Shown here piece after piece: positions 4,766-54,509 of a stretch of DNA of 64,000 bases. The notes beneath the pieces are model-generated. The model was not told the DNA's origin, searched no databases, and saw only the letters and a list, made by a program, of their open reading frames with translations. The position numbers and the translations under genes were made by a program. The stretch covers positions 90,435,980 through 90,499,979 of the forward strand of contig CP136063.1 in the NCBI GenBank assembly GCA_032622095.1, written 5' to 3'. Positions within the stretch are counted from its first letter, which is position 1, and each line of letters opens with the position of its first letter. Source of the DNA: Siphonodentalium dalli (Eukaryota; Mollusca; Scaphopoda; Gadilida; Siphonodentaliidae).

Positions 4766-4828
4766 TTACTTCTTTGACTTGAAGTATTCATTGAGAACGT
4801 CTAGGGCCTGTGATTCTTTGCCGTAATC
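4766..4828 (-). CDS. RPS12: RPS12 terminal coding exon 5
   Basis: 63 nt after a TATTTCAG acceptor, encoding [20 protein letters not shown] and a TAA stop (4768-4766). The Lys-rich C-terminus is characteristic of eS12. The 3' UTR is short, with AATAAA about 28 nt after the stop. Confidence 0.97.
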   Translation of the reverse strand, partial: DYGKESQALDVLNEYFKSKK

Positions 4829-7800
4829 CTGAAATAGAAGTGGAAATGTGTTACTATTACCTGCAACAGTTTATCAAAAGATTAATTTGCGTTTTTAAGC
4901 ATCTACAACTATGCTTGTCTCCCTTGCTTGAGGGAAGACAAATAAGTCATTTAGAAGCTGATCAACTGACTGAAACCAAAGAAAAACAAACTTACACCTT
5001 TTTTGCAGACAGTCTTGCATCAATGAGACACTAGAATGTGCCCCCCCCCCCCCCCCACAACATCTCCCAAGGGACATTTTCTACTACCTAAAACATTTTT
5101 GTGCATTTTTATTTAAATATAAAGGGTAACCATGGGTATCAAGATAACTATTCCATTTGTTATTTTTCGAGGACATACATGTAGCCCCAGTTTGAAGTAC
5201 CATTTTCCTCATCAGATGTTTCATCAGTGTCATCATTCTACTCAGAAGAGAGAGCATGAGTTGATGATTGATCATCATTAGGAGTGTCAGTTCTACACAG
5301 AGAATGATTTATCTACAGCTTTATCCCAGAGTCAATGCATATAATAAGGTGCCTATCCGATAAAAATATGGCAATATAAAAAAAACTTGGAATTTGTTCA
5401 TGCATTGAGTATTTAAACATAACTTAAGACAAGACACGTCATCGCAGTGGCACGATTGAACTATAAATATATGTAATTTTTCTTTTAGATTAGACAATGC
5501 TTGCATAAATTCACAAAACTTCCAAGCCTTTTTTTTTTTAAATCTTGCTTAATATTTTATGTGCATTTTTATTTAAATATAAAGGGTAACCATGGGTATC
5601 AAGATAACTATTCCATTTGTTAATTTTCGAGGACATACATGTAGCCCCAGTTTGAAGTACCATTTTCCTCATCAGATGTTTCATCAGTGTCATCATTCAA
5701 CTCAGAAGAGAGAGCATGAGTTGATGATTGATCATCATTAGGAGTGTCAGTTCTACACAGAGAATGATTTATCTACAGCTTTATCCCAGAGTCAATGCAT
5801 ATAATAAGGTGCCTATCCGATAAAAATATGGCAATATAAAAAAAACTTGGAATTTGTTCATGCATTGAGTATTTAAACATAACTTAAGACAAGACACGTC
5901 ATCGCAGTGGCACGATTGAACTATAAATATATGTAATTTTTCTTTTAGATTAGACAATGCTTGCATAAATTCACAAAACTTCCAAGCCTTTTTTTTTTTA
6001 AATCTTGCTTACTATTTTATGTGCATTTTTATTTAAATATAAAGGGTAACCATGGGTATCAAGATAACTATTCCATTTGTTAATTTTCGAGGACATACAT
6101 GTAGCCCCAGTTTGAAGTACCATTTTCCTCATCAGATGTTTCATCAGTGTCATCATTCAACTCAGAAGAGAGAGCATGAGTTGATGATTGATCATCATTA
6201 GGAGTGTCAGTTCTACACAGAGAATGATTTATCTACAGCTTTATCCCAGAGTCAATGCATATAATAAGGTGCCTATCCGATAAAAATATGGCAATATAAA
6301 AAAAACTTGGAATTTGTTCATGCATTGAGTATTTAAACATAACTTAAGACAAGACACGTCATCGCAGTGGCACGATTGAACTATAAATATAATTAATTTT
6401 TCTTTTAGATTAGACAATGCTTACATAAATTCAAAAAACTTCCAAGCCTTTTTTTTTTTTAATCTTGCTTAATTTTTTATTTTCTAAACAACAAATCTTC
6501 ATCGTTTTGCAGCCCATAAGGCCAGTATAAATAAATTCCTAGATCATCATCCCCGCCCCGATTTTTTTGGCCCGCCCCATATATTTTTATTACCGTACTG
6601 ACCCGCGTTTAGGCCCATTTATTTGAGCTCAAAAATCCAAGTGGGCTTAAACTCGGATATGGCCCTTTGCAAACCAAAAATCCTAAGAAATCGGGACAGT
6701 AAAAGTGATGAAAGCCGATCTAACGCCGATTATTTGGGAATTTTTTCAATTAAATGTGAATATTAAAATATTATAATAACACTTTAAGTCTTGTAGTTTT
6801 ATTGGACAACATTCCCATGTTAAAATGACACTATTATGTAAGTAGTCTTGACTGACAGCCGTCTTGTTCCCAAAGTGTTTGCTTGGAGTCGGGAATGCCC
6901 TGGTTATTATGTAAGCGGCAGTGTGGGTTATCTATAGTCTGACTATAGTTTATATCAATGTTCAGATTTAATCCAATCAGGAAAACAATAAGCCCGGCGC
7001 TTTATTCGTGATCCATTATCTACATAGAGGATGTTACAATGGCGACTAATTGCATGTTTAACAAAAGCCAGTGAGTAATTATTTAACGGTGACGGAATCT
7101 GACGAGGTTTGCCGAATGCTAAAACGTATACAAAAGCACGTGTTTGAATATTTTGGTTTCGAGTGAATAAAGTTGACGCAGTTTTACGAAAAATCACAAC
7201 TTTGTGGAACGCGTTCTCAGAAGATTGTCATCGCGAATCTCGATGCAAGCGCCGTATATCTCTACTATTCTGTGATCTTTGTGTTGACAAAGACGTCGTG
7301 TAAATGATGAATTTACATTTATTATATTATATTAAGCACACTTGGGTATCAATTATTGTATATATGTAAAATAAACTGAAACTAGACATGATTTTAAGTA
7401 ATCCATTCGGTGAAATTTTACGACATTTCCGGCTGCCAGAAATAGATGCGACAAGTCAAATTTGTCAAAATAACAATTAAATATCTAAAATGGTTTCATG
7501 TTTCTTTATTAAACATCAATACTATAAAAGTGTTTTAATTTTTTAATAAATATTAAAGATGTTTGAATTAATATAAATACAAGTTAACTTTCTCGGGAGC
7601 TTGTACTGTATTGCACGTGTCATTGAGAACAGGCAAATGATGCAGTGTATACTCAATACAAATGTTTCACGTCTGTTTTATAACACGTCAATAAATCTGG
7701 AACGAAAAGCTGAATGATGACCAATTGACTCATTTATTAAATACAATCAATGTATTTATAAATATATCAACCATGTGTTGCATATTGCAATTGCATCCTT

Positions 7801-10800
7801 TGTCCATGAACACAATGACATGTGCTTTCTCTATATGCACCCGGTATATACCCATGGGCATATCCTTCCCCCCCCCCCCCCATCAACTAACACCAATGTA
7901 GTCTACAATTACATGTAGGACTTGTATTATAAAAGTTGAGTGATTTACACATTTAGCTTGTATTTTTTAAGTGCTACAGTGTGTCTTCCATCACACATCC
8001 ATGCACCAGGGTTGCATGCGGACAATACAAACCACTGTGAAACTCACTCGGCTATAGTTTAAGGAAAATACTGTATTGGAAACATGGTAGTTTCGAAATA
8101 AAAAATAAAAAATAAAATTCGCCCCCCCCGCCCCACTTTTGAAAAAAATTTGGATGATGATCTAGGAATTTATTTATACCGGCCTAAGGCATTGGTAATT
8201 AGAAGAGAATGTTATGTTACTGGAATTTTGCCATTGAACTCACAAATAACAACTGGTTTGAAGAATTCATACATCACCTAAAATCATGAGCTTCTTGGTG
8301 ACCAAGTTTACTATTAATTAACGCATTTGCCAGAATAGTTATGCAAAGTGCTACAACTGATGTTTTAATGCCAAGAAATATATGTATTAAGGTGGTTTGC
8401 AAATTATCACTGTATTTTAGAGTCGTCGTTCTTCGGAGTTACAGATTTTGTTTAAAACAAGGATTTCAACACGGTGCATCATTATTGTTAACGAAATATA
8501 AAGCTTTCTATTTTTTTTTTGTGTTCTTCTTTGTGATGGTTTTACAAGCTTTGTGTTGTTTACAGTGCTTGCAGATTTGAACCATTAGACCTCATTTCTC
8601 AGGATCATTACCCTGCGTTCAGAGTTGGCATTGACCATTGACAAAAATTCTATATTTTACATTAAATTTGCATCGATCTTCGTTGATCTAAGCATTTATG
8701 CACATTTATTTTGTCTTCTTATTTTCAGCATCGATAGTCTATTCCTTGTATTAAAACGTTTTTTATATTTTCAAATTGATTCCCCCCCCCCCCCCATCAG
8801 ATGTTTCATCAGTGTCGTCATTCTACTCAGAAGAGAGAGCATGAGTTGATGATTGATCATCATTAGGAGTGTCGGTTCTACACCGAGAACGATTTAGCTT
8901 TACTAGTATCCCAGAGTCAATAAATACAATAAGGTGCCTATAGATCTGATCAAAATATGGCAATAAAACTTGGGGAATTTGTTCATGCATTGACAAGGCA
9001 ATGAATCCCACATTCATGCCTTGAGTATTTAAAGTGATGTGAAACACTCCGATCGGGTGATCAGACAGAAATGGAGAATAAATAGTTTTTTTTTTTTACA
9101 AATATTATATCCAAATTGACAACGCACACCATCATTCTTATATATTAACTAAATGCAGTGACTCTCGCTGGTGGAATTGTTTGCGTTAGTTTGTCACCGA
9201 TAGTTGCGTCTGAAACAAGTGTAAATATTTACAACTGAGCGTAATTCAGATGATCATCGCATATATATGTAATTTTTTTCTTTTTAGATTAGACAATGCT
9301 TACATAAATTCAAAAAACATCCAAGCCTTTTTTTTTTATTAATCTGGCTTAATTTTTTATTTTCTAAACAACAAATCTTCATCGTTTTGCAGCCCATAAG
9401 GCATTGGTAATTAGAAGAGAATGTTATGTTACTGGAATTTTGCCATTGAACTCACAAATATAAACTGGTTTGAAGAATTCATACATAACCTAAAATCATG
9501 AGCTTCTTGAGGTGACCAAGTTTACTATTAATTAACGCATTTGCCAGAATAGTTATGCAAAGTGCTACAACTGATGTTTTAATGCCAAGAAATATATGTA
9601 TTAAGGTGGCTTGCACATTATCACTGTATTTTATAGTCCAAGTCTTCTCGTACTAAAGCCGGCTAAGATATTGGGATGGCGTTGCCGGTCTTTAGTCCAA
9701 GCCCGCTGCTATACCAATCCTTTGACACGACTTACGCCCACGATCTGTGGCGGGATTCTGTGGTGTATTTTACTCGATTTACCTAATGAATCAATACATG
9801 ATGCTATATACATCGGAAAGAGAGATATCTTATGGTCATAATGGTGTATAATAATCTAACTTTCATGTTAAATTACGCACAGAATATTCCGGTTGATTGT
9901 CACCAACATCGCTGTTTTTTATATTTTGTTTACATTACTGAAAGCCGAAGTCAGGTTCCGAAGAACTTCGGCATTGTCCGGTGTTTGTTCTGAGTATTCT
10001 AGTTTCTGTTTCTATATATAGCGCGGGGTTTTCCGAACAAAATGGAGAAAACCGATCGCCGCAAAGTCCAGTTTCCAATGTGCTTTGAGAACAATTCCCG
10101 CACTAAAAACTTAATGACATAATGGAGGATCAGAAAGGTAGTTTTGTTGACAATTTTCGCAAGCAACTTGTCAAAATTGGAGCAAATTAGAACTCTTGTG
10201 TCTAACTTGCCATGCGTGTGATTTTCATCCATGTGCATTTTGACCTTTGTGTTGATAAAATAATCGGAGAACCGAATCACACAGTTTCGAAATATAGTTC
10301 TTCCGTTTTAGTGGGACTTTTCAAACTTAAGGTTAAAAATTTATACAAATTTTGTTTGATTTTTTGTGTGCTTAACAAGAGCATTATATTGCTCTGTTCG
10401 CTTAGTATATATCTTAATTTCGCTGAAGTCCACCAAATGTGGGAAATGTAGCACCATATTATTTATTCTAATGATCGTTGTGTTTACACTGTTTTAAACT
10501 TTGAGAGGGTTGTAATTCTCCGTAATTTATTTAATGTATTACATTTATATCTTCAATGTTTAATTAATCTATTTATTTTTTATTTATTGACACACATAAT
10601 TACGATTACAATGGAGAATTCATCGTAATTTGCATTGTCAGTCGAAAATCTACGGAATATTTTCAACGGAAAATGCCGAACACAGTTCGCGAGGTCAATT
10701 GAGTTCGCATACTTTTAAAAATTTGTAAACATTGCGGTAAATGTCTCTTTTCGCATTAAATTACCGTTTTCAATTCACAACTGATGTGGGTTTCAGATCA

Positions 10801-13800
10801 AATAGCATGTCTTCTGCGGAAAATATCCGTTTATTGTCGCAATTGTGATATTTTATTTCATATAATTGTGGTTTTATTTGAGCGGGTCACTAACGCTTAA
10901 CTCGTGTCAAAGGAATGCATGGGCCTGGAACTCGGACTAAAGACCGGCAACGCCATCCCAATATCTTAGCCGGCTTTAGTACGAGAAGACTTGGACTATG
11001 TATTTTAGAGTCGATGTTCTTCGGAGTTACAGATTTTGTTTAAAACAAGGATTCAACACGGTGCATCATTATTGTTAACGAAATATAAAGCTTTCTATTT
11101 TATTTTTTTCTTCTTTGTGATGGTTTTACAAGCTTTGTATTGTTTACAGTGCTTGCAGATTTGAACTATTAGACCTCATTTCTCAGGATCATTTCCCTGC
11201 GTTCAGTTGGCATTTACCATTGACATAAATTCTATATTTTACATTAAATTTGCATCGATCTCCGTTGATCTAAGCATTTATGCACATTTATTTCGTCTTC
11301 TTATTTTCAGCATCGATAGTATATTCCTTGTATTAAATTTTTTTTTTATATTTTCAAATTGATTCCCCCCTCATCAGGTGTTTCATCAGTGTCATCATTC
11401 TACTCAGAAGAGAGAGCATGATTTGATGATTGATCATCATTAGGAGTGTCGGTTCTACACAGAGAATGATTTAGCTTTATCCCAGAGTCAATAAATACAA
11501 TAAGGTGCCTATAGATCTGATCAAAATATGGCAATAAAACTTGTGGAATTTGTTCATGCCTTGAGTATTTAAAGTGATGTGAAACACTCCGATCGGGTGA
11601 TCAGACAGAAATGGAGAATAAAAAGTAGTTTTTTTCAATTTTGTTTTTTTTACAAATATTATATCCAAATTGACAACGCACACCATCATTCTTATATATT
11701 AATTAAATGCAGTGACTCTCGCTGGTGGAATCATTTGCATTAGTTTGTCGCCGATAGTTGCGTCAAAACAAGTGTATATATTTACAACTGAGCGCAATTC
11801 AGATGTTTTCCATGGAGTGGGAAGGTCCAATTGTTTGAAATATTTGTCAATGTTAGTAGAATGCTACATTCCTGCAGTTGCCATAGCCATTGGACCATAT
11901 CTCCCAGCATCATCACTCTGAGTTCAGTTGGCACAGACTATCTCAAATTATATTTTTTACATTTAATTTGCTTCGATCTAAGCATTTATTTCGTCTTCAA
12001 TTTCCATCATTGATAGTATATTCCTTGGTATTAGAAACATTTTTTATATTTTCAAATTGATTCCCCCCTCATCAGATGTTTCATCAGTGTCATCATTCTA
12101 CTCAGAAGAGAGAGCATGATTTGATGATTGATCATCATTAGGAGTGTCAGTTCTACACAGCAAAGAGAACATGAGAATTGCCACTGGGTGTTGGATCATT
12201 AAAGCACATGCATGTTAAGCAGAAATAATTAGAAATTATCTTCAAAACAAGGTGCCAATCCGATCAAAATATGGCAAAATCGATAATATATTTACTAATA
12301 AAGAATTTGTTAACGCATTTACACAAGAAATGAATGGAAGCTTTGATGAGGTCATGGAAATTCTACCATAATACATATTTAGCAAACACCATGAATCACT
12401 TTAGGGTTCATGCAGTTTGCTAAATCTATGTCATGGTAAATATTCATGACCACCAGACTTTCATTTTAAGAAAATGAAGGCGCGCATAGTCTCGCTCGCT
12501 GGTTTGGGCCCAGGCGCGCAGTTTCTATCAAGATAAAATAAACAGCGGATTGCCGGAAATCCGAAATACATTCATAAATGCCGCGTAAATTGAATTAGTT
12601 AACTCACGATCGATGTCCTGTGAATCTCTTTGATGGTTTAACACTGCTTAATCTACTATCCATAAGCACAAGTGAATGTTACACACTATGTTTTATGTTG
12701 TACATGCTCCTATACTAATTGTAATTCATAATTATTAATAAAGAATCAATTTAATACTCCGATTCCATGCCGACAGAATAATATCAACTTCTCCCGGCCA
12801 CGTGGTCTCGCTTTGATTTTCCAGGAATTTATGTGACGTCATAAGCCATACATAGAAATAATTCAAATGTATTTTTAGCTTCGAATCATTCAGACAGATT
12901 GTGCATTCGACACCGTGTGACCTCAAATAATTTACTGGTGTCGGTGATCAAACGTCGGGCGGGTTGATTGACACCGCACTGTGAATGGAAAGTTGTGGAA
13001 TTGGTAACTAGGTCGCGGCACCTTTGATCTCGCGACACATCACACAGGCATTCTCGCAACGCGGTAATAAAACGGAAAATGGGACACATTATTAACCAAT
13101 CTCGTCTGGGTAGACACTGAAAATATCGTTATCAGGTTCGGCCAATTTCGCTCGCTGTATTTGGCCTAGGTGCGCAATCGCTCGCTCGCTGGTAATCAAT
13201 TTCAGGCGCGCGATGGTGCGCAAGAGCGATCGCGCGCCTCAAAAATGAAAGTCTGGACCACTTTGAATTAAGTATTATTACATCCGATTAAATACTGATT
13301 TTGTCTAACCTTCCAGCATTGACGGGCATGGATAGTATTTTTCCAGTATTGGTTGAGCATGCTACATGGGACTGAATTGTGAACCCAGAACAATCACATT
13401 TTCATTCAGTTAGATCCGTGACAATGACTTCACTGAACAACCCACAAATTACTGAAATTTTTTAAGTTTGATCTGCTTTTCAACTTTTTGTTCAACTGAT
13501 TTTTAAAGGCCCACTTAATTTTCGAACCTCCAGATTACATAAATAAAATATACGCCATATTATATACCATTTGAAAGAGGAAGCTCCAAATTTCAAAACA
13601 TTGTATTATCAACTTATCTGGTGTAATAAACAGTGAACATGTTTTTGTTGAGTTACCGCTGTGTTTTCGTGCTTAAGTTTCAATGGAGGGGTAATAACTC
13701 AAATCTTATAGAATTATTCCCCTTCCATTGACAACACATTTTTAGTTTGAATTTCTCTATTGGCATCTTCTGAGACACACACGTTTCAAATAGTGATAAA

Positions 13801-16800
13801 TTATAGTATTTTAATCATATTTTATGGCATAGATTGTTATTAAAACCATATATCAAGGCACTTAAAAAAAAAAAAAAATTAAGTGGGCCTTTAATTATTT
13901 CACCATCAGTGTCATCATTCTATTCAGAAGAGAGAGCATGATTTGATGATTCATCATCATTAGATGTCAGAACAGTTATCTGACATTAAAGATGAGACGG
14001 TATTCAATTATTGAGCATGACCATCATCATAAGGGCAAATTACTAACAAATAACGTACAAATATCCTATTTTGCCATATTAAAGTTAGGCCACACAAAAA
14101 GTTGATAATCTGTTTCTCAAGACACTTTTTTTTTCAAAGCAAGCAGGCAGGCAGTTTCTATATTTATTTTTTGGGCCAAAATTTACCGGCAGGCAGGTTT
14201 TTATTTGTTTATCCCCGAATTGAATAACCAATGTTTTGGACTTAAATCTGACTATTTGATTTGGTTTTATAAAAAAAATTAATGTATTAAATGTAACACC
14301 TGACTGAACCATCTATATATACAATGTATACAATAAAAAACAAAAATATAAACTTTTATAAAAGTGAATTAACGAATAAATTACCAGATCAAAACTTTAT
14401 TTTCTTTGTCACCACTTCTACCATCACTTGGGAATGTTCAACTTGTTGATAGTGCAACCTTGTATATATGTATCAATAGCTATGTTATGTTAATTAGGAA
14501 AAAAACTCCTAAGCAAAAAAAGTGCCAAGAAAAAATATTGAATAGAACTCTCCATTAATCTCAGATAATAAGTAATATTGAATATAAAAATTTAAATAAC
14601 AATCAGTCGCAGACGACGGTATCCCCCGCCGAATTGTGCAGTTGGGGAAGTGCATTCTTAATGTTTGCGTTCTCAGTATGTGCTAAACAAGAGGTGGGAT
14701 TTTGTCAAAAAGCCTGGCTTGCGAACTCATTTTAGGTACTGACATTTTTGGAAATTAGCCATGTGACGTCTGTTTATTATTTTCCCAATAACTCAGTGAA
14801 TAACTCTGCTGAAAATATCCGGCCGGACCTGGTTTGGGAACTCGTTCTAGATACTGGTCATGTTAACTCATATACCAAAAATCTGTTAAATCCGTCGACA
14901 TTTGTGGAAATGAGCCCTGTGACGTCGTCCCAAGTCCTATAACTCCGGTAAAAATATCTGGCCAGACCTGGCTTGCGAACACATTCTAGGTAATGGTCAG
15001 GTGAACTCGTATACCAAAAATATTTGAAATCCGTTGACATTTGTTCAAGTTATGATTCCTACAGACGGACGCCATTCCTATATCCTATAGGATATGTAAT
15101 TTGTACGAGTCATAACTTGATCTTGAACAAATGTCAACGGATTTAAAAGATTTTTGGTATATGAGTTCACCTGACCATAACCTAGAATGAGTTCGCAAGC
15201 AACGGAGATATTGGACTTTGTTTATTATTTTTGTCGAATTTACCAAATAGCAAATAGACAATGTCACAGGGCTCATTCCTATTTTCAATTTGGAGGGGGA
15301 TAAAAAAAAGAGTTTTTTTTTTATGGCAGGCAGGATGAATACCTTGTAGTGTGTGATGAAAACCACCCAGTGACGCTTATTTTAATGGGGCGGCGGTGTC
15401 TGAGAAACAGATCATTAATTTTGTGATGGCCTTCGTATACAATGAATAACTGGTTGCTATCGTATTTCAAAAATTACCATTTTTTAATTATTATACTTAC
15501 TTTGACGACTACACAACTGCAGCCAACCACTTTTCTTGCTTTACCTTCTTTGTCGATTTTACACAAACCAGCCCATTCTCCTAGTTTCTTATTGTTATCA
15601 ACCTGCAAGACAGACGTATTCCATCCATTACCATAAAATAAGAGCATTAAAAATATAAAATTATCAAAACATTCCAGAACCGAGGTGGCCAATTCGGACT
15701 TTATTCAAGGTCTATCTTCTGCTTCAAGTCAACCTGTTTTTAAAGTTTTAATTCTCTTACGGCCAAAAAAAAGAAGATTGTATGTTTCCGATAACGGAGC
15801 GAAAAAATTAGGGTAGGTAGGTAGGGAAATTTTTTTTTTTAATTTTATTTTGATATTTTCTATCCAGCTTCATAAATATTGAACTACCTCGACCGAAATG
15901 ACATAAAATGCCAACTCGGGTTGAGGGGAAAGTATTACTTGATCAACACGGTGGAAATGTACATTAAGATTGATAAAAGATCAAACTTACTTCATGCTTA
16001 TAAAGTATGTTTTTTATTATTCACATTCCATATTTTCATAAATTTGGCTATAAACTTGGTACGAAATTCATGTCGCTAACTTTTTATAAGAATTTTACAC
16101 ATAATACCGCCATTATACCGTACTTGTATTGCGACGACTACATCCCATTGTCTGGAGGTAGTCATGAGTACACCCAACCTAGCATGCCTGGTTTTTGGAA
16201 ACAGTAGCTATACATGTACACCTAACATGTGGTGATAACCTCTATACATGTACATGTATATATACATATAAACACCCACCATGTCTGTTGATAGTGTTCC
16301 TATGTTTCATAAGATCCAAACAAGGCATAAAGCAGGCAGGAGATCCACTCTCAGGAAATTAAAATTGAAAAATGCATGCCCATCAGTCAACAACCCATCA
16401 CACACCTGGGGGCATTTGAGACAGCAGTCACTTCATGGTCACTTTTCACAGGGATATGTTAGAAACCATGTGTTTTGAACACTAATGACCATCAATATTT
16501 AAGTGCATTATTGGTAAAAACAATAAAAAAGAAAAAAAAAAAAAAAAATTTTTTTTGACCTTTTCTCAAAATATCAATAAAAAGATTTAATAGGGTCGCG
16601 GGTTATTGTTAGGGTCGGTCGATGTACGGAAACATAGCATTTTTTTTTTTTGGCCTAATCAAAAATTCTAAGAACCGTATTACGAAAGCGGATATTCTGC
16701 TTAACGGCAGGTAACCAGTATCAAGACTTAATAGATCATTTAATATTAAAGATAACCAAACTTGTAAAAGAAAACAATGGGAGGTATCTCGTTGTAGCTG

Positions 16801-19800
16801 ACCCAGCATTTGAGTTTGAAAAGTTAATTTTCAAGATGTTGGCTGATGTGACCTCTCTCAGAGCGCTATGGGATGAAACCATCACCGTAAATCAGCTATG
16901 GTAGATTCAACCGTTCTCATCATGAAGATCGTAGCACTTGTGAGTAGAGCAAAAAAAAATATTTTTTAAGCCTTTAAATATTGATCTAAATTGATAAACA
17001 AAACCTTCCATTTAGCAATATAATTCATTTGGTTGTCCAAGATCTCAATATCCAGAAAATTTCCAAATCCCTATTAAAATATTTGTTTATTTATGTGGCA
17101 AAAAAAATTCTAGGTGGAGAAAACTCCACTAAAAGAAAGTCTGGATGGAAGACCTCATAAATTGCAGGTGCACAGGTTCCCATGGAACTAAATATATGTA
17201 TCAAGTTTCAAAACAATCGACTGCAAAATATAGTAATACAAGCTCGGACATTTATTAGAAAACAATCAGAACTAAAACTACAATGTAAGTTAACATCCGG
17301 AAACCAAAATACGCAAATTCCAAATCAACAGCATAACTCCAGTAAAAGAGGGTGGCCCAAACTCAATTTCGAACTTGACCTATGTTTTCGTGGAGTAATC
17401 CATATACCTAATGTGAAAACAATCTAATAATTAAAACTAATGTTTTCACCCGGGACGAACAGAGACTTAACAATTTCTATTGTACATGTTCTGCTTGCTG
17501 TTCACTGCTCAATTTTGTTGCAGTAATTACCTTTCTCAGAGCGCTATGGGATGAAACCATCACTTAACATCAGGTATGGTCGTTTCAACCGTTCTCATCA
17601 CTAATAAATAAAATATACGCCATATTATATACCATTTGAAAGAGGAAGCTCGAAATTTCAAATTGTATTATCAACTTATCTGGTGTAATAAACAGTGAAC
17701 ATGTTTTTGTTTTGTTACCGCTGTGTTTTCGTGCTTAAGTTTTTTTCATCTGGATTTAGTGCAAAAATGTATTATTTTCAATGGAGGGGTAATAACTCAA
17801 ATCTTATAGAATTATTCCCCTTCCATTGAAAATACATTTTTTAGTTTGAATTTCTCTATTGGCATCTTCTGAGACACACATGTTTCAAATGGTGATGAAT
17901 TATAGTATTTTAATCATATTTTATGGCATAGATTGTTATTAAAACCATATATCAAGGCACTAACAAAATTTTCAAGATGTTGGCTGATGTGACCTCTCTC
18001 AGAGCGCTATGGGATGAAACCATCACAGTAAATCAGCTATGGTAGATTCAACCGTTCTCATCATGAAGATCGTAGCACTTGTGAGTATTTGTGAGTCAAC
18101 AGAGCAAAACAGTTTATTTTTTAAGCCTTATTGATCTAAATTGATAAACAAAACCTTCCATTTAGCAATATAATTCATTTGGTTGGCCATGATCTCTATA
18201 TCCAGAAAATTTCCAAATCCCTATTAAAATATTTGTTTATTCATGTGGCAAAAAAAATTCTAGGTGGATAAAGGGGGACAACTCCACTAAAAGAAAGTCT
18301 GGGTGGAAGACCTCATAAATTGCAGGTGCACAGGTTCCCATGGAACTAAATATATGTATCAAGTCTCAAAACAATCTACTGCAAAATATAGCAATACAAT
18401 CTCAGACATTTATTATAAAACAATCAGAACTAAAACTACAATGTAAGTTGACATCCGGAAACCAAAAGACGCAAATTCCAAATCAACAGCATAACTCCAG
18501 TAAAAGAGGGTGGCCCAAACTCAATTTCGAACTTGACCTATGTTTTCGTGGAGTAATCCATATACCTAATGTGAAAACAATCTAATAATTAAAACTAATG
18601 TTTTCACCCGGGACGAACAGAGACTTAACAATTTCTATTGTACATGTTCTGCTGTTCACTGCTCAATTTTGTTGCAGTAATTACCTTTCTCAGAGCGCTA
18701 TGGGATGAAACCATCATTTAACATCAGGTATGGTCGTTTCAACCATTCTCATCACTGAAAGGCTTTTTATTAAGACATATTATGTACTTACTTCAGTGAA
18801 TAAACCCGATAAGTTTCCACTGGAAGAATGTAGCAATCAATGCCAATCATCATAGATTATCAAAATAAAAAACCACATCGATTGTACCATTTCAGTGAAC
18901 ACAACATGACGCGTTTGAATTATCTACTACTTTATTCGGAATAAATTAATGGGCAAAAACATCGCAGCAATGATTCCGCCAACAATGGTCACTGCATGTA
19001 ATCTGTTTATAACAATGTCATGGTTTTCTGCCTATTTTGATATCAAATTTATGAAAATTATGACATGATCCTTTGTTGAGTTCACATCAGTTTAACCCTG
19101 ATCACCAATGGATTCTACCATCCATTAATCCATTAATGTGTAGGGTAAAGAGAATGGTCTATTCATTTGTGGGGGGGGGGGGGGGTTTCATTAGGGATGT
19201 TCAGATAACAGACAGAAAACTCCCAGGAAATAATCTGTAGGAATGTTTCATATCTGAGAAAGTAAAATTTAACTATAAATTATTGTCCTTGCAAGACTTC
19301 TCAACTGAGATAAGAAAGTTTAGCAAGCAAGTTGAGCAAATAGAAGGCTGCAATAGTCTGCAGGGTATGCCGATGAATTCAAATCTAAAATCCAATATGG
19401 CTGCTGGGTGGCCATTTTTTTTTTTTAAATTCGGGAAAAAAATTATGGCTGCCATCTAGAGTTCACTTCCAAGATCCAATATGATGGGCTTGTCCCAGAT
19501 GGGACTAAGTAATACCTCCCGTATTCAAAATGTTATTTGAGTGAAGTAGCCATTACCATATATTGGGCACTGAAATTATGACAACAGGTATCTCTAACCC
19601 TAAACCCCCTAACCCTAACCCCTAATCAGAAATCCACAAAAAAGTCAGACAGACATCATAATCGCAGGTGCACAGGTTCCCATGGTACTAAATATCAGTG
19701 CCAAGATTAAAAAACATTGACCTAAAAATGTAGGAATAAAAGCTCGGACAAAATTATACATGTTGTGAAAATATTTTAAGACGAAAAAGGGGGGATAACT

Positions 19801-22800
19801 CCTCCAAAAAAAGTCCGACAGACGTCATAATCGCAGGTGCACAGGTTCACATGGTGGTTGATGTCTGTGCCAAGTTTCACGGAAATTTATCAAAAAAACG
19901 ACAGAAAAACTCCGGACAAATTTGTGTCGAAGAACGGACAGCTCTATACCAGTATGGCCCCCCCCCCCCCACAACTCGTTGCGGGGGGTATAATTAATTG
20001 TATAGATGATTGGATGAGGGATGTGGCCTGATGGGTGTGCCAAAGGGTTTAGTCATATGAAGAGTATCTAAGATAGCTGCAGTGGCCAAGTTTTTCATCT
20101 AAAATTGTTAAAATTTGATAGCTCCCATCCAGGTGATACCAAACATGCCTTAAATTTTAGAAAACAATTTCCAATAAATGTGGGCTGCAGGGTGTGCAGA
20201 TGTATTCAAATTTGAAATCAAGATGGCTGCCATGTTTTTTAACTAGTTTTTGGCTCCCATCTGGAGGTCGCCCCGAAGATCCATACAATCGGATGAGATG
20301 TGACCTATGGGTGTGCTAAAGTAAATTGTGGATAGATGCAGACTGATAAAATCCCATGGTAATAGGTTAATGGGTGGACCAAACTCAAATTTGAACTTGA
20401 CCTATATTTTAATGCGAGTAACCGATATACCAAATTTGAAAAGATAGAACTAAAACCAATGTTATCATCTGCAAAACAATCTGGGACATATGGACACATG
20501 ATTATTTCAATAGGACATGTTCTGTTCACTGCTCAAATTTTGTTGCAGTAATTACCTTTCTCAGAGCGCTATGGGATGAAACCATCATTTAACATCAGGT
20601 ATGGTCGTTTCAACCATTCTCATCAATGAAAGGCGGTTTACTGAATGGATTATACAGACTAACGAACGTCAACATGTGGACTCCATGTTGACACTTAGCA
20701 GTCCACAATAATAGCCACGGCAAAAAGCAATACCATGAGAAATGCCGTGGCAACATGTGCAATCTATAATGCCACAGCAATGTCATGGAATATTTTCCCC
20801 CAATTTCGAGGGCTCACTTAGCCAAACATCCCTACACATGAATCTATGAGTATCAAGTAACTGAGTCAGGAGTCAACGAGTCTTGTTTATATACTCACTC
20901 TTATGAGATTGATTCCGTGTTCAGCACACAGGGCTTCAACGAGTTTGACGTAGCTCGCTTCATCACAGTTGTTAGCAAGCACGCAAAGATGAGCCTGTCG
21001 TCTGTAAATAAATTAGGTAAAAAATAATTATTAAATGCAGCTGAATATACATTTTCGCAATGAGTATATTAAAACGGGAAACAATGGGAACAGATGTGCC
21101 ACATGAGGCTAAGGCCATTAATAATTAATTCAATGTTTAGCATCATCCTTCAATCCAAGAACTAAATTCGGAATGCAGTAATTATTGCCTATTAGTCCAG
21201 GAGATATTGGTCGACCTCTGCACCCGCCCCAGGACTCAACTTCACCCCAATAATTTTCTTCCTTAAGGTCTCCTCTAATTTTTTTCACTTGTTAACAAGA
21301 AAAAAAAGTGGCCGCAGACTCCAGACAAGATGGCGTCCATTTTTATTAAATGCACCAGGTCTCTTTGATCGCCATTATAGTAAAGATGATATCACATGCG
21401 GTCTTGTTTTCCGCTCGATTCGTTATGCCAATATACAACCCTTACAAATTAGCCAAAAATCCGACACCAGAATCCAATATGGCCACCAAGATGGCCACCG
21501 AAATGTGAAAATATGCTATTTTTCTGATATGTTACCACCTTTTGTTTGTCTCTGTGGGAAATGTTGGCATCTTTGCGTCATGTTATACATTTATCATATA
21601 GAGGAGTCATTGGCGAACACATGGGGACCATAACATGCATTCATTGCAGGATATTTTTGTCCGATATCACGTTTTCCCAAATGCCGGTATAATAGGTCAA
21701 AGCCAGTCCTTCGAATTTGGAAAACGTAGGTGCGCGATATATCGCTCGGAGCTTTTGGGATTTGCGCGCGCCTTTTTTGAGGGAGCACAATTTAAATTAT
21801 CATCGATGAAATGATTACTGAATAAATACAAACTCAAGTATAATGATACACACGTATAATTCCAAGTGTGGCAACAGAAACAGAAATAAAAACATGTTTA
21901 TATTATACAATAGTCCACATGATAATAACATCAACAATCCCGGTGAATCTGATCACGGTAATTAGTCGACTTCCGCCTCTGAGAGCGCATGCTCATCAGA
22001 CTCGATTAAAGCTTCAAACTCGGAAGTGGAATCCGAATCGCTACCGGAATCAGATTGCCAGGGAGCAAACTACTTTTAAAATTTTGATTAGTATATAGCT
22101 AGTCAATTATTGTAATTGAATAGCATCCATTCCGAATTGAATAGCTATTTTTATGGGCCTAATATCTCGGTGAATTAAAAGTAATAATGTCACACATGTG
22201 AATTACGTCCCAGTGAGCACACGCGACAGCTTGTCTGGGACTAATTTGTCACATATTATCTTTAGAATTAGCGCTTTTAAGATTGCACACTTTTGCCCTT
22301 TTAGGCAGTGTCACCATCACTATCCGACATGAATGATGATACAGTATAAACCCTAATCTAATATTCAAATGAATCGGCGAATCCCGCATGCCGAAACATC
22401 AAACGAGGCCGCCAATGAATTGACACGCTTTTTGCGGGAACTCGCACGTGCAGCAGTTGTGATGAGGTGTCACCCCAATCATTGAGTGCGAAAGACGCCG
22501 CTTTGATCTTTGTTACCAGGTTCGTAATCAACGTCATCCCTGCTGAGAAAGATACATGGTGAATAGTCTTGTCGGCGTTTAACCATTGCTGTGTTGTTTG
22601 TTAAAATCTCGTTCACTGGTTGCAATTTCCGAGGCGCGCATTTGAAATTTTCGGCGTACGCATTTAATAACTCGCTGGTTTTTAGATCCGCCTCAAAATC
22701 GAAGGACTGTCAAAGCCGAATCTACGTTAATAACGCGATGTAATGTTTCGAATCAATGAATGTTATTGCTATTGTAACACCCATGCATATATATGTGCAG

Positions 22801-37800: not shown

Positions 37801-40800
37801 AGCGGGCTAGCATCACTAAATTCACCCTCTGGGGACCTCATTCTGCTAGGGCCCCCAACTGCTATGGCAGACCTAGGATAAGATTGAAGTTCCCCAGTTG
37901 AAGTTGGTGATGTTCACCCATTGGGCACCTCAATTAGGAATTTATCTTCTGCAAATTAGGGGATATAGAAACTTCCTAGAAGGGAAATGTAACTAACAAC
38001 AATGTTAATTTGATACTATAGATACTTCCCAGAAGATGAGGCCTAAGCAGAATGAGGTCTCCAGAGGGTGAATTTGGTGATGCTAGGCCGCTGTGTGGGA
38101 TAGCATCACTAAATTCACCCTCTGGGGACCTCATTCTGCAAATGACATTAGTCCTGATATGAACAATACATGAGAGATTGGGAATTAATGACATCTAGCA
38201 AATCTGCAGGAATGTTTATAAACATATCAAGATTGACATGATTGTGTCGGCATAACCAGCATATATACAGTTACAGCCAAAGTAAATGCTTCTTATTAAT
38301 GATTCTGTCAAGAATTTGAGTAAATTTTATTTTTGAGACCAGGCCAAGGTGGCAGAAGCAGTGCACTTGAATGAAGGGCCAGGGGCCACAACCTATGGAA
38401 ATGTAATGGCATTAGTTTTTCAATTATCAAAAAATGTTAAACAATATATATATATATTAAATTGACCATGGAGTTAAATACCCTTTTTTTTTTTTTTTTT
38501 TTTTTTAATATTCTAATAAAAAAAAACAATTCCACAGTTTTTTTAAATATTCTTTTATTTTTTAATATATCATTTCTTTTCTATTCTTTTCTTTTTTGGT
38601 TAAAGAGTTTAATCTGAATGTTTTTTTTCTGAGTTATGTCCCTGGCCCCACCCACATTTGACCCAGTGACCTCATTTGAACAAATCTGAACCCCAGTCAA
38701 CCAATGATCCTTCATACCAAATATGAACCCATTTGGCCTGATGGTATTCAAGAAGATGTTTAAAAGAATTACTATGGAGGGAAAGAGTTATGGTCCTGGT
38801 TTCTCAACTAATCAACCTGGTGACCTCATTTGAACAAATCTGGATGTGAGTCACCTAGGGAACATCCACACCAAATATGAACCCATTAGGCCTTATGGTT
38901 CTGGAAAAGAAGTCGTTGTAAGAATTACTATGAAGGAATAGAGTTGTGGCCCTGCTTTCGCAACTATTTGACCCAGTGACCTCATTTGAACAAATCTGAA
39001 TGAGAGTCACCTAGGGAACATCCACACCAAATATGAACCAATTCGGTCCAATGGAACTTTAGAAGAAGATGTTCAAAGAATTGTTGACGGACGGATGGAC
39101 GGAAGGACGACGGACGAGGAGTGATGACTATAGCTCCACCGGAGACTTTGTCTCAGGTGAGCTAAAAAGGCCAAACTAACTTATACATGTGTTTCTGGTA
39201 ACGGGCATGAAATGAAAAAATAGGGGGGGGGGGGGGGTGTTTGGTAACATTGGATGCTTTTTCAAGTCATACTAACTGCTGCGGCAAGTTATACTAAGAT
39301 TGAGGCAGGTGCCCAATGTTATTTATTAAACCAAACCATGAGCATGCGTTGCATCACAGACAAAATATTTCAGTCAACAATGAAAAGAAATGAACTAATG
39401 TAGAGAGGTCTACTATCAAACACCATTTATGGAGCGTGAGCTCAAATGGGGTTAGCGATTCCTCCCACTTTATGTAGCACTGTTGTGACACCCAGAATCT
39501 CAAAATAAATCCTGGGCTCTAATAACGTGCAATTTCGAGATTTGTTTGAAAATAAATTAATTTATTGAGCAAATTAACGTTTCAGCCGACAATGAAAAGA
39601 TATGTACTAACGTAGAAAGGTCTACTATCACACATTGAAACATATTAAACAAACTTGCTTATAGCAGCAATGGGGACTGCTTTTCTGGAATACAGTAAAG
39701 CATGCACATTCCCCATAGGTTAAACATTGTTATCTTTAATATTGACTTAATTTGGAGACAGAATGCAGTGTTTTCCGTTCTTCTGGATGTTCCAACTAAT
39801 CAGTTTCAGGGCCAGGAACTTGCGTCATTTGCTTGAAAATGGTGGCATGATTTCTTGCATCAAAGTGATTATTTACAGTTTTCTTCACATAAAAAAGAAT
39901 ACCAGAAAAGATAAGGAATGAACTATGTAGCAATATTTGATAGTTCACTGTTCAGAAGATATAAGTGCTGAAGTGTCCTGGGTCACCATTTATCAAGGTT
40001 GTGAAATATATAGTACAACGGAATTATAAAAAGGCCAAACTAACTTATACATGTGTTTCTGGTAAGACATGAAATGAAAAAAATAGGGAAGGGGTGGGGG
40101 TGGGGGGGGGGGGGGGGGGGGGTGTTTGGTAACATTGGATGCTTTTTCAAGTGATACTAACTGCGGTAAGTTATACTAAGATTGAGGCAGGTGCCCAATG
40201 TTATTTATTAAACCAAACCATGAGCATGCGTTGCATCACAGACAAAATATTTCAGTCAACAATGAAAAGAAATGAACTAATGTAGAGAGGTCTACTATCA
40301 AACACCATTTATGGAGCGTGAGCTCAAATGGGGTTAGCGATTCCTCCCACTTTATGTAGCACTGTTGTGACACCCAGAATCTCAAAATAAATCCTGGGCT
40401 CTAATAACGTGCAATTTCGAGATCTGTTTGAAAATAAATTAATTTATTGAGCAAATTAACATTTCAGCCGACAATGAAAGATTAGAACTAACGTATAAAG
40501 GTCTACTATCCAACCCTGATTATTAGGGTCGGCTATCGGCCAAGCCGACCGTTTTGCCGAGGAAAAATTTATTATCCTCGGCTAAAAAATGGCCAAGATC
40601 ATTGTCTGAAGAAATGATAAACAAAATGTCAATAAATGAGATTATCAACCTTATCTCTATCAAACCATCGACGTATATTGTATGGATAGGACACAAAGCA
40701 ATTCCCGCTTTATCTAGCGATCGGCGTTACTTCGACCGCAGCTGGCGAGAATTGCTGCCAGTGGAAGTTAGCGTAGTAACCAGTGTAAACAATCTATAGC

Positions 40801-43800
40801 GATTACGCATGTCTCGCGTAATTTCGCTGTTTAATGCAGGTCGATGGTATTAATAAACGATAATTGCGTTACATTTAGTTAGTTGTTTAATATGGACTTT
40901 ATTGCTCAATGCGGTCTGATCAGAGTGTTTACAATAATTTCATTGCAAGAAACATGAACTTTCACAACAGTAACATTTAATGTTGTTGTTAAACAGAATA
41001 CTGGTGAAAAAGCGGGTCAAATAGCGTCATTAGATACAGCGTAATACATGTCGCGGTAACTTCAAAGAATGCTGGACTGTTGAATGCGGATATTCTTGTG
41101 CACGGGATTCAATGGATGAAACTACTCAAGCTCGAAGACCCCGTGCTATCGTATGATTATATAATTCGATCAAAGAACACACAATTACTGAGTCGGGACA
41201 TTTGTATGCACGTGATTTTCGTGGATGAAACTACTCATTGTTGATCATTTATATTATTGCTGTATTATCATTTGTTTTGAGTTCGATGTAAGTGAAGTTC
41301 CTGAAAAACACATGCGATTCTCTACGTGTGTTGATTATTATGCGTATATTGCCATGAATACTCATCAAAATCCCAAAGTGATTTATTTCACAATAATAAG
41401 GAACCTGTCCCAAATCAGTCTTTAGAGCGGGAATTCATAGTGATAACATCATTCATTTGAGCCGTATTACATGCATGAAGGATAAACACGAACACATCCC
41501 CCCCCCAAATATGGAGATATAAAAGTCAAAATACGGTCAATAATAGTTTTGTTGTCCCGCCTGGGTCCCCAAAGCACAATCACAGTTCCCGCTAAAACTC
41601 AATTATATTTTATAACACGTTGGCTAAAACTCTGTTCTATAGCTGCGGTCGTCAACTGTTGTTGGACTAATAGACTATTGAATAAGCTACGCGTTCCAAA
41701 TGAAAGATTTCGCTACCATTCGTATTTCGCCGCTATAAATATCTCCTGCAGACAAACCCTGCAGTATGATGTCACAGCATACAAATTGTTTTACGATTGA
41801 CAGAATATATAATCCTGTCAGTTTCATTTTCGCTGACGCTACTTGAAATTCTAAGAAATACTTTATTCAATTCTCCTTGCTAGGTATTAATGGTCGATGT
41901 GTAGATGCTTTTTAGTGTTTAGATTAATTATACATGTTGGAATCTTATTGTAGGTTATAAATTTGTAAACACTAACTCGTAGCTCGTTCATTTATATAGT
42001 CTTCAATCAGACGGCAGTCTTACGTATACGTAATTACATGTCTAATTATTTGGATACCATCAACAGAATTAATGCACCCACGGAAATGATCGACTTGCAT
42101 AATATACATAGCTTTGGATTGCTTTGTGGGACACTCAGGCGCAAGGAAATAGCTACTTTTCAGTGTCAAATAACAAAATTTTCGCCCCACAGGACGAACC
42201 ATGGTCGTCCCGTCACGTTATGCGTTTCCCCAATACGGACTCATTAATTCCTCCCTAGCAGAAACCCTGATTTAGTGTCGCATGCGCCTGACTGTTAAGG
42301 CTGTCCCAATTACCAATTTGTTTCCTGTTATTGTTTCAGAATGTTTGTATGTCATTATCATCACTATTAAAGCATAATACCTTATACTATTGTAAATCTT
42401 GTAATGTGTTGGCTTGTTATTTGGTTAATGTCCCAAGTATACAATGCAATAGAAGGGGAGTAATTCTATAGACATTTTGTTCCTGGGCTTTGGTATAACA
42501 TGTGCCTTCGCATGTCTGAATGAGCACTTATCAATGGCGGAATGTTGATAGGTCAGCACACCCCAACTGTGTAATGATGCAACCCCACATGCTCCCACGA
42601 GGTTTCCGAAAATTTGTTTGATGTTTAAAATTATGTCTCACAATGCGTGACAAGCTGTCTACTGTCTACACTGTCGCGATCAGACAGACAAATGTTGAAC
42701 ACTTTGATGATGTTGTGTATACTCTTGAAGCATTTATTGCAAGTGTTTATTTTATTTCCCCCGAGACTAAATTCACTAGAATTTACGACAATTATCTGGT
42801 ATAAGATACAACAACCTATACATGGTGGATATTGAGGGAAGGGTGTGTCATGGGGTGTATCGTTTCCGACGATAAACACGGCACATATCGATATGCATCC
42901 CTAGTGGATAGCTATCATTTAATAATTTGAAAATTAACAGGCGTAAGTTATTTTCAAGTTGTCTCAATTTGGTTCTTGCAAATGGAAAATGCAACAAGTT
43001 AAGTGCATCGTAACTTAAGTATTTGGAATTCCAACTGTCCCACCCCTACACTAAGCGAGTTTATAATATAATGCACCCTCAAACAGCCCTCATAATTGGC
43101 TACAGCAATCAGAAATGCCATTTGCTGAAGCAAACAGGGCCAAGGCAAAGGGTAGCCATAGTGGATTGTCGTAGCCAAACAATCTGAATTAAGAGGACTG
43201 CCTCAAAACTCCAAATATGCTTTAGTGAATATTTGAAAATGATCTTATTACCTCAAATGGCTTCATTTCATGAATATTTCTAAATTTACATAAAGCCTCC
43301 AATATATTAAATTCTGTGCTACTGAGATAACAACTAGAAGTATGGATGTAGAGAGGTCTACTATCAAACACCATTTATGGAGCGTGAGCTCAAATGGGGT
43401 TAGCGAATCCTCCCATTTTATGTAGCACTATTTTGACACCCAGAATCTTATGCAAAATTCTGGGCTCTAATAATGTGCGATTTGTTTTACTCAGGGCCAA
43501 CACCATTTCATAATGAATGACACTGACCAATACTCAGTAGACTAAGCTCAGTATTTCACTTTTATACCAGTGGATGAAAATGTAAATTTCCTGCAAAGTT
43601 ATCACAATGGAAAAGATTAACAATGTTCCTAAGGACATCATAGTCTCTTGTAACAAAATACTGGGATTCCAGGGAAGGGTAGAGAAATGAGTCAAATGAA
43701 CAGTAGGGAAATGAGTCAAATGAACAGTAGGGAAATGAGTCAAATGAACAGTAGAGAAATGAGTCAAATGAACAGTAGGGAAATGAGTCAAATGAACAGT

Positions 43801-46800
43801 AGGGAAATGAGTCAAATGAACATTAGGGAAATGAGTCAAATGAACATTAGGGAAATGAGTCAAAATGAACAGTAGAGAAATGAGTCAAATGAACATTAGG
43901 GAAATGAGTCAAATGAACAGTAGAGAAATGAGTCAAATGAACATTAGGGAACAAGAAATTGCAATGTTTCTTGTCATCAATAAAATTGAATTGTATTTAT
44001 TCTTTCTTTGATAGACAAATTGGCAGGACTTAACGTCTTAAAACAGTCATCAAAACATCAAGATTGTTTAAGAGTGGCAATGAAAACGAGCACGGAAATC
44101 GCACATCATGTCCCTAACATACCAGGCACGAGTTCAGTACTCACTTGTCTAATGCTTTTGCACACTCGTGGAGCCCTCTGGCCAAGCCATCATGTATCAG
44201 GGCTGTCTTCAGTACTTCTTGCAGTGCAGTATTAGTCTCCATTGGACCACCAGCGGCCTGGACATCATCTCTACAAACCAAGCAAAATATTTGTGTTCAC
44301 GGTGAAATACATAACCAGCAATCTTGCATTGCACACAAAATCAAATTAACAAGTGCACCGCTGGGTGGAGGCAACGCCCCCGACTGTACAATCAGAGAAA
44401 CTTTCTGGTTAAGCGCTATAAAAATGCCACATGTTGTTCTATATTAGCTTCAAATTTGGTCTGGTGCCACAAAAATAGAAGGAAAACTGAATTTTCTAAA
44501 AACAAAACTGAATTTTTTAAGTCGAAAAAGGGTCACAACTCTCACAAAAATTATCCGATTGAACCGAAATTTTACCTTGAACTGTATTGCGATATTGGTA
44601 ATACACAAAAAAACGGGTTTTGCAAATAAACAATCCAAAATCAAGTTATCATCTGGAAACCAAAAAAACCTGAATTTTCTAAGTCCAAAAAGGGGCGTAA
44701 CTCTGGAAAAAATGGGTGGACGAAACCACGGCTATGAGGAAATCTTGTCCCCCCGGCTGGTCTATTGGCATACCAAAGATCAACTGAATTGAATTAGCGA
44801 AACCAAAGTTATGAGTTGAAACGTTCGTATGCCCAGTCCTTCGATTTTGAGGTGTGCAATTGCGCTTGCGAGCCTTGGCGCACGCGGATCTAAAAACCAG
44901 CGAGTTATTAAATGCGCACGCCGAAAAATTTAAATGCGCGCGTCGGAATTTGCAGCCAGTGAACGAGATTTTAACAAACAGCACATCAATGGTTAAACGC
45001 CGACAAGACTATTTACCGTGTATCTTTCTCAGTAGCGATGACGTTGATTACGAACATAATAACAAAGATCAAAGCGGCCGCCGGCGTCTTTCTCACTCAA
45101 TGATTGGGGTACACCTCGTCACAACTGCTGCACGTGCGAGTTCCCGCAAAAAACAGTGTCAATTCTTTGGCAGCCTCGTTTGATGTTTCGGCATGCGGGA
45201 TTCATTTGAATATTATTGGCATAGATTAGGTTTTAAGTTTAACTATACTTCGTAACTTCGAAGCTATACTTCGAAGCCAGTATCTCTAGACTTGGAGAAA
45301 AACGAAAAATGGACATTGGAGCCTCCTCAAATACCGACTATATCAAAACGAAAGAGAGCCCCGGTTGATTCGTCGGATTCCGGTGAATCTGATTGCGGTA
45401 ACGATTCCACTTCCGAGTTTGAAGTTTTAAGCGACTGCGAGTCTGGTGAGCATGCGCTCTCAGACGCGGAAGTGGACTCATTACCGTGATTAGATTCACC
45501 TGGATTGCCAGATAATCGGATTATTGTGGACTAGATATTGTACTACAATATAAACATATGTTTTTATTTCTGTTTTCACTTTAAGTTGCCAAAGGCACAC
45601 TTGGAATTACACGTGTGTATCATTATAATTGTGTTTGTCTTTATTCAGTAATCATTTCATCCATGTTAATTTGAATTGTGCTCCCGCAAAAAAGGCGCGC
45701 GCAAATTCCAAAAGCTCCGAGCGATATATCGCGCACCTACGTTTTCCAAATTCGAAGGACTGTATGCCACAGAAAACTGAATTTTCTAAGTCCAAAAAGG
45801 GGCGTAACTCTGGAAAAAATGGGCGGACTAAACCGCAGTTATGGGGAAATCTTGTCCCCCCCCCCCCCGGCTGGTCTATTAGCATACCAAAGATCAACTG
45901 AATCGAGTTAGCGAAACCAAAGTTATGAGTTGAAACGTTCGTACGGACGGACGGCTCCACTATATACCCCCAAATCTCCATCGGAGGCATAATAAGCCTC
46001 CATGCAAATGACTCGTACAAGTAAAAGGTAAATTACTCATCTTCTGTTCTAATATACTACTAAAACAGGCAATACAATTTTTAAGATGCTAAACTGGCAA
46101 TGAGGTAGTAAACATACCTATTTCCGGTATTGCAGAATTATGGGTAACTTTTCAGGATTTAGTCGGAAATATGGCTTGTTGCCATTCATCGGAAAGCTCT
46201 CCCAAATATGTTTCAATAACCCTTGGAAGGGATAATATCATACATGTGAATAGATAGCCTAAGACAGGATATCAACACGTCTAGATGATGGATAACTATA
46301 GATTGGAAAATGTGAATATTACGGGGCACTCTTGTGTTTCAAGTCCCGTTTTATACGTCAAGCCAGACACGGACCGTGTCAACCTAATTAGTGTGAAAAT
46401 GACAAAGTCCAAGATGGCGCGACTGGAGCATGACTTATAAAACCAACTGGTTCGTCAGAATTTCTCTAGCACGACCCCGACAAACTACACGTCTGAGGCT
46501 CAACGATGTTTTAATGTATGTGCTAAACACGGGTCGCGGTAAGATTCAGGGAAAACCATTCCCCATTTAGGAACACTTGGACGGAGAGCATGCGCAATTT
46601 GAAGTTTTTGGCGCCATTACGTTATCTCTGGAGTCGTCCTAGCGCGACCCGTGTATGGCATGTCGCATAAAACAGCATCGGACCACAGACGACCGACGTG
46701 CTAACTCTTGGCCATTGTAAATATACTAAGGCAATTGTACGGTGCTAGGGAGACATTCATGTATCGACTGACAAAGGTCGTTTCGCGAAAGTTGGGAATA

Positions 46801-54469: not shown

Positions 54470-54509
<40 letters not shown>

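Follow-up and report, generated by a model that had tools for sequence, protein, structure and literature searches.

RPS12 as the probable host of three snoRNA families, each multiplied within its own intron, in the scaphopod Siphonodentalium dalli

Small nucleolar RNAs (snoRNAs) lie in introns of RPS12 in vertebrates, among them SNORD100, which we take to be the same RNA as HBII-429. SNORD100 is placed in intron 4 and Snora33 in intron 5 of mouse RPS12 (PMC10287158), and SNORD100 (as HBII-429) in intron 4 of chicken RPS12 with a guide given as 5', taken here to mean D' (PMC2653536). SNORA62 is assigned the target 28S U3830/U3832 (PMC2850357, PMC4515611) and the hosts RPSA (human, sheep and chicken) and FAU (some Suberites sponges) (PMC4515611, PMC2850357, PMC2653536). 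Intragenic (cis-) duplication of snoRNAs is well described (PMC2653536), and animals predominantly carry one snoRNA per intron, two in one intron being able to give snoRNA-type long non-coding RNAs (sno-lncRNAs; review PMC11028025). The locus considered here is a window of 64,000 nucleotides (nt) from the scaphopod mollusc Siphonodentalium dalli (GCA_032622095.1, CP136063.1, positions 90,435,980 to 90,499,979), located on contig C3 of a 2.23-Gb assembly of 9 contigs. Its RPS12 gene is very probably the host of three rRNA-guide snoRNAs, each multiplied within its own intron by segmental duplication; these would comprise a SNORA62-like H/ACA snoRNA in three copies, a 28S Cm1881-type C/D snoRNA in five copies (family B) and an 18S Gm436-type (SNORD100-type) C/D snoRNA in seven copies (family A), with one intron for each.

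The minus strand of the window contains an intact RPS12 (eS12) gene, four coding exons of which were matched by an RPS12 probe (tblastn). The exon edges are GT/AG, and the joined exons encode a protein of 136 residues. Solved eS12 chains align with its residues 10-136 (E about 1e-68), and one of them, 9bh5_AM, does so from residue 1. The H/ACA, B and A families occupy three successive introns, at 21002-44144, 15603-20898 and 4829-15500 (23.1, 5.3 and 10.7 kb, respectively). In the initial annotation, made from the letters of the window, these were numbered 2, 3 and 4. Their succession stands, but a splice acceptor upstream of the candidate start-codon exon points to a non-coding exon 1 and an intron in the 5' untranslated region, and the host introns are therefore probably 3, 4 and 5.

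All fifteen copies proposed initially (A, seven; B, five; H/ACA, three) are present, all on the RPS12 strand. Searches of the window with nhmmer (E<=1) returned 8 (A), 5 (B) and 6 (H) matches, which include the 7, 5 and 3 copies of the inventory; the surplus of 1 (A), 0 (B) and 3 (H) consists of weak matches (E 0.0046, 0.024, 0.027 and 0.55), one of which lies on the opposite strand of H1. Genome-wide DNA searches gave 3 (H), 5 (B) and 7 (A) among the matches listed, counts that are possibly lower bounds, and every one of these lies inside RPS12, one family per intron. A covariance search of the genome for SNORA62, which scored 38 of 60062 first-look candidates, likewise recovered the three RPS12 copies and no others. 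The one-to-one correspondence of family and intron is thus borne out, and the dispersal across the genome that had been named beforehand as an outcome contrary to it was not seen among the listed matches.

The anatomy of the copies agrees with their initial reading as snoRNA-like. C (RUGAUGA) and D (CUGA) boxes with internal D' and C' are present in all five B copies, as had been claimed, and in all seven A copies, with the exceptions of the C box of B1 (UUGAUGA), one change in C' of A4, and an ambiguous D box in family A, A2 having a D box with a better stem further downstream of its first D-like CTGA. A terminal stem is present in B1, B2, B3 and B5 (shuffle P 0.003-0.039). The stem CCTTTC/GAAAGG, initially ascribed to family B as a whole, is that of B1 and B2; B3 and B5 have GATCTT/GAGGTC, and B4 has no stem. 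The H/ACA layout of hairpin, hinge, hairpin and tail is found, with two hairpins and, in 3/3 copies, the H box ACAUAA (ANANNA) and ACA 3 nt from the end, the copy ends being those placed by the Rfam RF00091 match; the folds of H1 and H3 have z scores of -4.0 and -3.4. A comparison with Rfam, suggested in the initial annotation, was run on the window, and RF00091 (SNORA62) covers the H/ACA copies over the whole model at 60.9-63.5 bits (E 5.1e-9 to 1.3e-9), below its gathering score of 80. By sequence and model score the H/ACA family resembles SNORA62, and its class is given here as SNORA62-like.

Table 1. Positions of the RPS12 exons, the snoRNA-like copies in the introns and the U14-like matches elsewhere in the genome (window coordinates unless a contig is named)
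Feature	Location	Strand	Basis and remarks
RPS12 candidate start-codon exon, MSDAEG, in frame	47305..47337	-	inferred from pattern search and frame/splice-site reading
RPS12 coding exon, DDVQ..LDK	44145..44270	-	tblastn, splice sites
H/ACA copy H1, SNORA62-like	43344..43481	-	RF00091 63.5 bits (gathering 80); fold z -4.0
H/ACA copy H2	40278..40415	-	RF00091 60.9 bits; duplicate with H3, 490 columns
H/ACA copy H3	39396..39533	-	RF00091 60.9 bits; fold z -3.4
RPS12 coding exon, RQAHL..LIR	20899..21001	-	tblastn, splice sites
C/D family B copy B1, C box starting with U	20561..20626	-	boxes, 7-bp terminal stem
C/D family B copy B2	18690..18755	-	boxes, 7-bp stem
C/D family B copy B3, variant stem and D' region	17999..18064	-	boxes
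C/D family B copy B4, 5' stem arm lost; B2 similarity stops at body	17536..17601	-	
C/D family B copy B5	16858..16923	-	boxes
RPS12 coding exon, VDNN..VVVK	15501..15602	-	tblastn, splice sites
C/D family A copy A1, oldest split	13906..13961	-	only about 60 nt in common with other six
C/D family A copy A2, C box to first D-like CTGA	12084..12139	-	boxes, nhmmer
C/D family A copy A3	11386..11441	-	boxes, nhmmer
C/D family A copy A4, single change in C'	8809..8864	-	boxes, nhmmer
C/D family A copy A7, 460-bp tandem unit	6144..6199	-	repeat alignment, nhmmer
C/D family A copy A6, 460-bp tandem unit	5684..5739	-	repeat alignment, nhmmer
C/D family A copy A5, 460-bp tandem unit, 395 nt from splice acceptor	5224..5279	-	repeat alignment, nhmmer
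RPS12 last coding exon, DYGKE..KSKK stop	4766..4828	-	tblastn, splice sites
U14-like cluster, ten copies (L030-L043)	C9:31054848-31136039	one strand	RF00016 search
Three further U14-like matches	C5:158257824-158258486, C5:93705508-93705597		two 573 nt apart, start to start

Guide complementarity of at least 10 nt beside D or D' was found for both C/D families, with two G-U pairs in each. The family B guide beside D forms 16 consecutive pairs with a 28S fragment (L019), with the target C at the fifth base; none of 5000 shuffles scored as high in an rRNA search space of 5345 nt, and one of 1000 dinucleotide shuffles did so in the fragments alone. The search space includes a provisional 18S sequence, a divergent large-subunit rRNA (L013) and fragments chosen for these sites, and the shuffle figures therefore flatter the match somewhat. 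L013 is a eukaryotic contaminant among bacterial genome contigs, and served only as extra search space and for a conserved 28S site. Of the four listed matches covering the B target site, all of which were read, L019 and L021 keep the full pairing stretch, and L020 and L022 have substitutions within it. By comparison with a provisional human 28S sequence, the site is presumably 28S Cm1881, the SNORD48 site, an identity supported by its 10-nt spacing to the SNORD38 site A1871. The family A guide beside D' forms 14 (A2) or 15 (A5) consecutive pairs with an 18S fragment (L014), with shuffles as high in 11/5000 (A2) and 2/5000 (A5) cases in the 5345 nt and in 0/1000 dinucleotide cases each in the fragments alone. 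Four of the seven listed 18S matches covering this site were read (L014, L015, L016 and L018), and all four have the A that completes the pairing, replacing the C of a generic 18S sequence. We take the target base to be number 436, as counted in a provisional human 18S sequence. Both 28S Cm1881 and A1871 (as SNORD48 and SNORD38 sites) and 18S Gm436 (as the SNORD100 site) are named in PMC12288042 and PMC9941101. On base pairing, 18S Gm436 is a plausible target of the A guide beside D', and 28S Cm1881 of the B guide beside D. The H1 guide pocket offers 7+7 nt to the conserved 28S UCUACUAUCUAGCGAA, with ACA 14 nt downstream, and that of H2 and H3 offers 7+6 nt to the same site, with one end base differing.

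Two further regions were tried as guides. The family B D' region pairs with GUAUGGUUG of the provisional 18S over 9 nt, which was not taken as a target, and 640/1000 (B1 type) and 368/1000 (B3 type) shuffles did equally well in the fragments. The family A C'-D region pairs over 7 nt at best, a length equalled in the fragments by 1000/1000 shuffles. Searches of the genome with 5.8S, 18S and 28S queries found no full rDNA unit, only dispersed fragments of all three, which are scattered over many contigs (L004, L009-L012, L014-L027); complete units may be unassembled. At E<=0.001 two of the rDNA fragment loci were matched by none of the rRNA models, and a scan of viral contigs found nothing. A 28S piece (L009) and an 18S piece (L012) on different contigs contain nearly the same hairpin, given a weak MIR841 score by Rfam.

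The flanks of the copies record how most of them arose. H2 and H3 have 490 columns in common at 92%; the B5-B4 pair is a duplicate of B3-B2 (799 columns, 93%), and B1 and B2 have 276 columns in common (81%). A5-A7 are 460-bp tandem units that are 98-99% identical, A3 and A4 have 857 columns in common (89%), and A2 aligns with A3 and A4 over about 300 columns (79-81%). All copies except H1 and A1 (13/15) thus align with a sister copy over at least 276 columns, showing segmental duplication within the intron. The amplification had initially been described as local, by intron duplication and not by retroposition; its local nature and the absence of retroposition agree with these flanks and with the lack of listed family matches elsewhere, but the duplicated unit was a segment inside one intron, not the intron itself. 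The oldest splits (H1; A1; B3/B5 from B1/B2/B4) have little beyond the snoRNA body in common, and a body-only copying event may underlie them; that they too arose by local duplication is inferred from their location.

At these splits the bodies are conserved beyond their flanks. Body identity is 124/138 for H1-H3, 54/56 for A1-A2, 53/56 for A1-A5 and 56/66 for B1-B3 (0.85-0.96), and the 100-nt flanks of the same pairs give 0.43-0.54, compared with 0.45-0.48 on average and 0.51-0.56 at most after shuffling; the 3' flank of B1-B3 (0.54) is slightly above its own shuffled maximum (0.51). In the five copies of family B, 0/21 positions of the D guide and D box are variable, compared with 10/45 elsewhere in the body (Fisher p 0.024, a guide only, since the copies are related). 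The H family has most of its changes in the 5' hairpin, and of the two located in the 3' hairpin one lies where the guide pocket ends. Selection on the snoRNA bodies would be the simplest reading of these patterns.

Amplification in this genome extends beyond RPS12. A control search for one other snoRNA family, U14 (RF00016), in which 122 of 37115 candidates were scored, gave 13 matches, none over gathering: C9 carries ten of them, within an 81-kb cluster, and C5 the other three. The fetched pieces of the C9 cluster contain seven SNORD31 (U31) matches over gathering, on the same strand as the U14-like copies. Three U14 match pairs recur with a shift of 31852 bases, and a stretch of 3094 bases is the same in L033 and L034, so part of the cluster reflects either a large duplication of recent date or the assembly itself. 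No RPS13, HSC70 or RPS12 match was found as its host, and Pfam matched nothing in the plus-strand frames of the five pieces submitted to it (L036, L037, L038, L040 and L042) or in the surroundings of the C5 pair (L044). The C9 cluster may represent a non-coding snoRNA host gene that has been amplified, and snoRNA duplication may be a habit of this genome. Amplified snoRNA loci accordingly number at least two here, and RPS12 is the less singular for it: the initial view of its arrays as new accords with the literature consulted, and amplification is not unique to RPS12 within the genome.

If RPS12 is such a host, its pre-mRNA would be spliced, the introns carrying the expressed snoRNA copies, and snoRNA proteins would shield the copies from exonucleases during processing, or would act on stems within the intron. 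One host transcript would then give several copies of each guide, directing methylation (families A and B) and pseudouridylation (H/ACA), and the extra copies would raise guide dosage. Several observations weigh against this reading or limit it. All 15 copies are more than 100 nt away from a splice acceptor, the nearest being at 395 nt and H3 at more than 18 kb; vertebrate C/D snoRNAs usually lie within 100 nt of the acceptor, and processing must here tolerate distance. No family attains its gathering score in the Rfam scan of the window, at any of the 15 copies, and the 25 weak matches listed for A2 (E<=10; one lower shared-clan match omitted) do not include the SNORD100 model. The plain C/D pattern is unspecific by itself, with 7 matches having a stem of at least 4, of which 5 are family copies and 2 lie elsewhere. 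B4 lacks the terminal stem (shuffle P 0.94), and those of family A are not clearly above chance: A2-A7 have weak stems of 4-6 bp (shuffle P 0.07-0.10, using the downstream D box), and A1, with the nearer CUGA only and no downstream D box, has 4 bp (shuffle P 0.25). The target rRNA consisted of dispersed rDNA fragments that were fetched for covering the candidate sites, and in the divergent large-subunit rRNA alone no A or B guide beat shuffles. The A guide also has competing partners, both scoring below 18S G436 (32 for A2, 35 for A5): 28S AAGAGAGAG over 10 nt (score 23), and a 15-nt site elsewhere in the provisional 18S, one base off D' and with 5 G-U pairs (30 for A2, 26 for A5).

The arrays might instead be mostly dead, with one or two working snoRNA genes per family and the rest a neutral consequence of duplication within such very long introns, as the lost 5' stem arm of B4, the near-identity of the recent A5-A7 units and the U14/U31 amplification elsewhere would lead one to expect. 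We consider this unlikely, since the diverged copies H1/H3, A1/A2 and B1/B3 keep most of their guides and boxes between flanks near the shuffled level, and at least two lineages per family are seemingly under constraint. The departure of several snoRNAs per intron from the predominant rule, together with the sno-lncRNAs that two in one intron can give (PMC11028025), raises the alternative that the arrays mainly make sno-lncRNA-like products or regulate RPS12 splicing, with rRNA guiding secondary; the invariance of the family B D guide in five copies is what rRNA guiding predicts, nothing direct favours splicing regulation, and this alternative seems improbable indeed. Least credible of all, and barely worth entertaining, is the return of retroposed snoRNA copies to their home introns: the oldest pairs have only the body in common, and the similarity of B4 to B2 ends at the start of the body as a processed insertion might, but the long sister alignments of 13/15 copies, the confinement of listed matches to RPS12 and the lack of an A-tail directly after A1 all speak against it.

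Other features of the window were observed alongside the arrays. A 24-bp tandem repeat (43679-43951; 11.3 copies at 94%) lies about 200 nt upstream of H1. The RPS12 introns hold many diverged repeat copies with core words such as AAAAAGGGCCATAACTC and GAACTTGACCTGTATTTTG (27917-36808 and 44518-44733), and several near-perfect palindromes of ~100 bp in both orientations at 35342-38147, resembling miniature inverted-repeat transposable elements and with weak matches to microRNA models. G-runs of 25-35 bases are present on the plus strand at 36941-36965, 40091-40122 (imperfect) and 54474-54508, and the end of the window (62001-64000) shows strong strand asymmetry (GC skew -0.355), with units of 41-42 bp nested within a 330-bp repeat.

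The RPS12 arrays offer a natural test of the release of multiple snoRNAs from one animal intron, and bear on selection for guide dosage and on the duration of snoRNA-host association. A prediction from family A is that the association of a methylation site with its host gene has been retained between vertebrates and S. dalli. A more speculative and somewhat doubtful extension is that the link between RPS12 and an 18S Gm436 guide descends from a common ancestor with vertebrates, RPS12 having then become a multi-snoRNA hub whose giant introns release several guide copies; if true, such introns would break the rule of one snoRNA per intron and demand processing beyond lariat-end trimming.

Compared with known snoRNAs, family A is like SNORD100 in its host, its predicted target (18S G436) and its D' guide, and differs in having seven copies rather than one and in lying, by exon count only, probably in intron 5 rather than in intron 4 as in mouse and chicken. 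The same host and target in this genome and in vertebrates suggest an old association; since the SNORD100 model, which has no match listed in window positions 1-50000, misses family A, and the intron is probably different by count, orthology is put forward as a hypothesis. Family B is like SNORD48 (U48) in its predicted target, 28S Cm1881 (Cm1868), with its guide beside the D box; the SNORD48 model is neither among the 20 matches for B2 (E<=10) nor listed for window positions 1-50000, and the best weak Rfam match of B2 is SNORD53/92 (24.3 bits; gathering 46). The human host of SNORD48 is a gene other than RPS12. The H copies are like SNORA62/E2 in their match over the whole model and in having SNORA62 guide elements, and differ in scoring below gathering, in lying in RPS12 rather than in RPSA or FAU, and in being three in one intron. 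In the titles and abstract openings consulted, multi-copy snoRNAs in RPS12 are not reported, and the parallel multiplication of three families in a single protein gene, with one intron to each, appears to be a variant not found in that literature. Local copying within a host gene is also known from a chicken gas5-like host and the SNORD115/116 tandem repeats (PMC2653536, PMC11028025), from which the S. dalli locus differs in that each family is multiplied within one intron, three families are multiplied in parallel, and the host encodes a protein.

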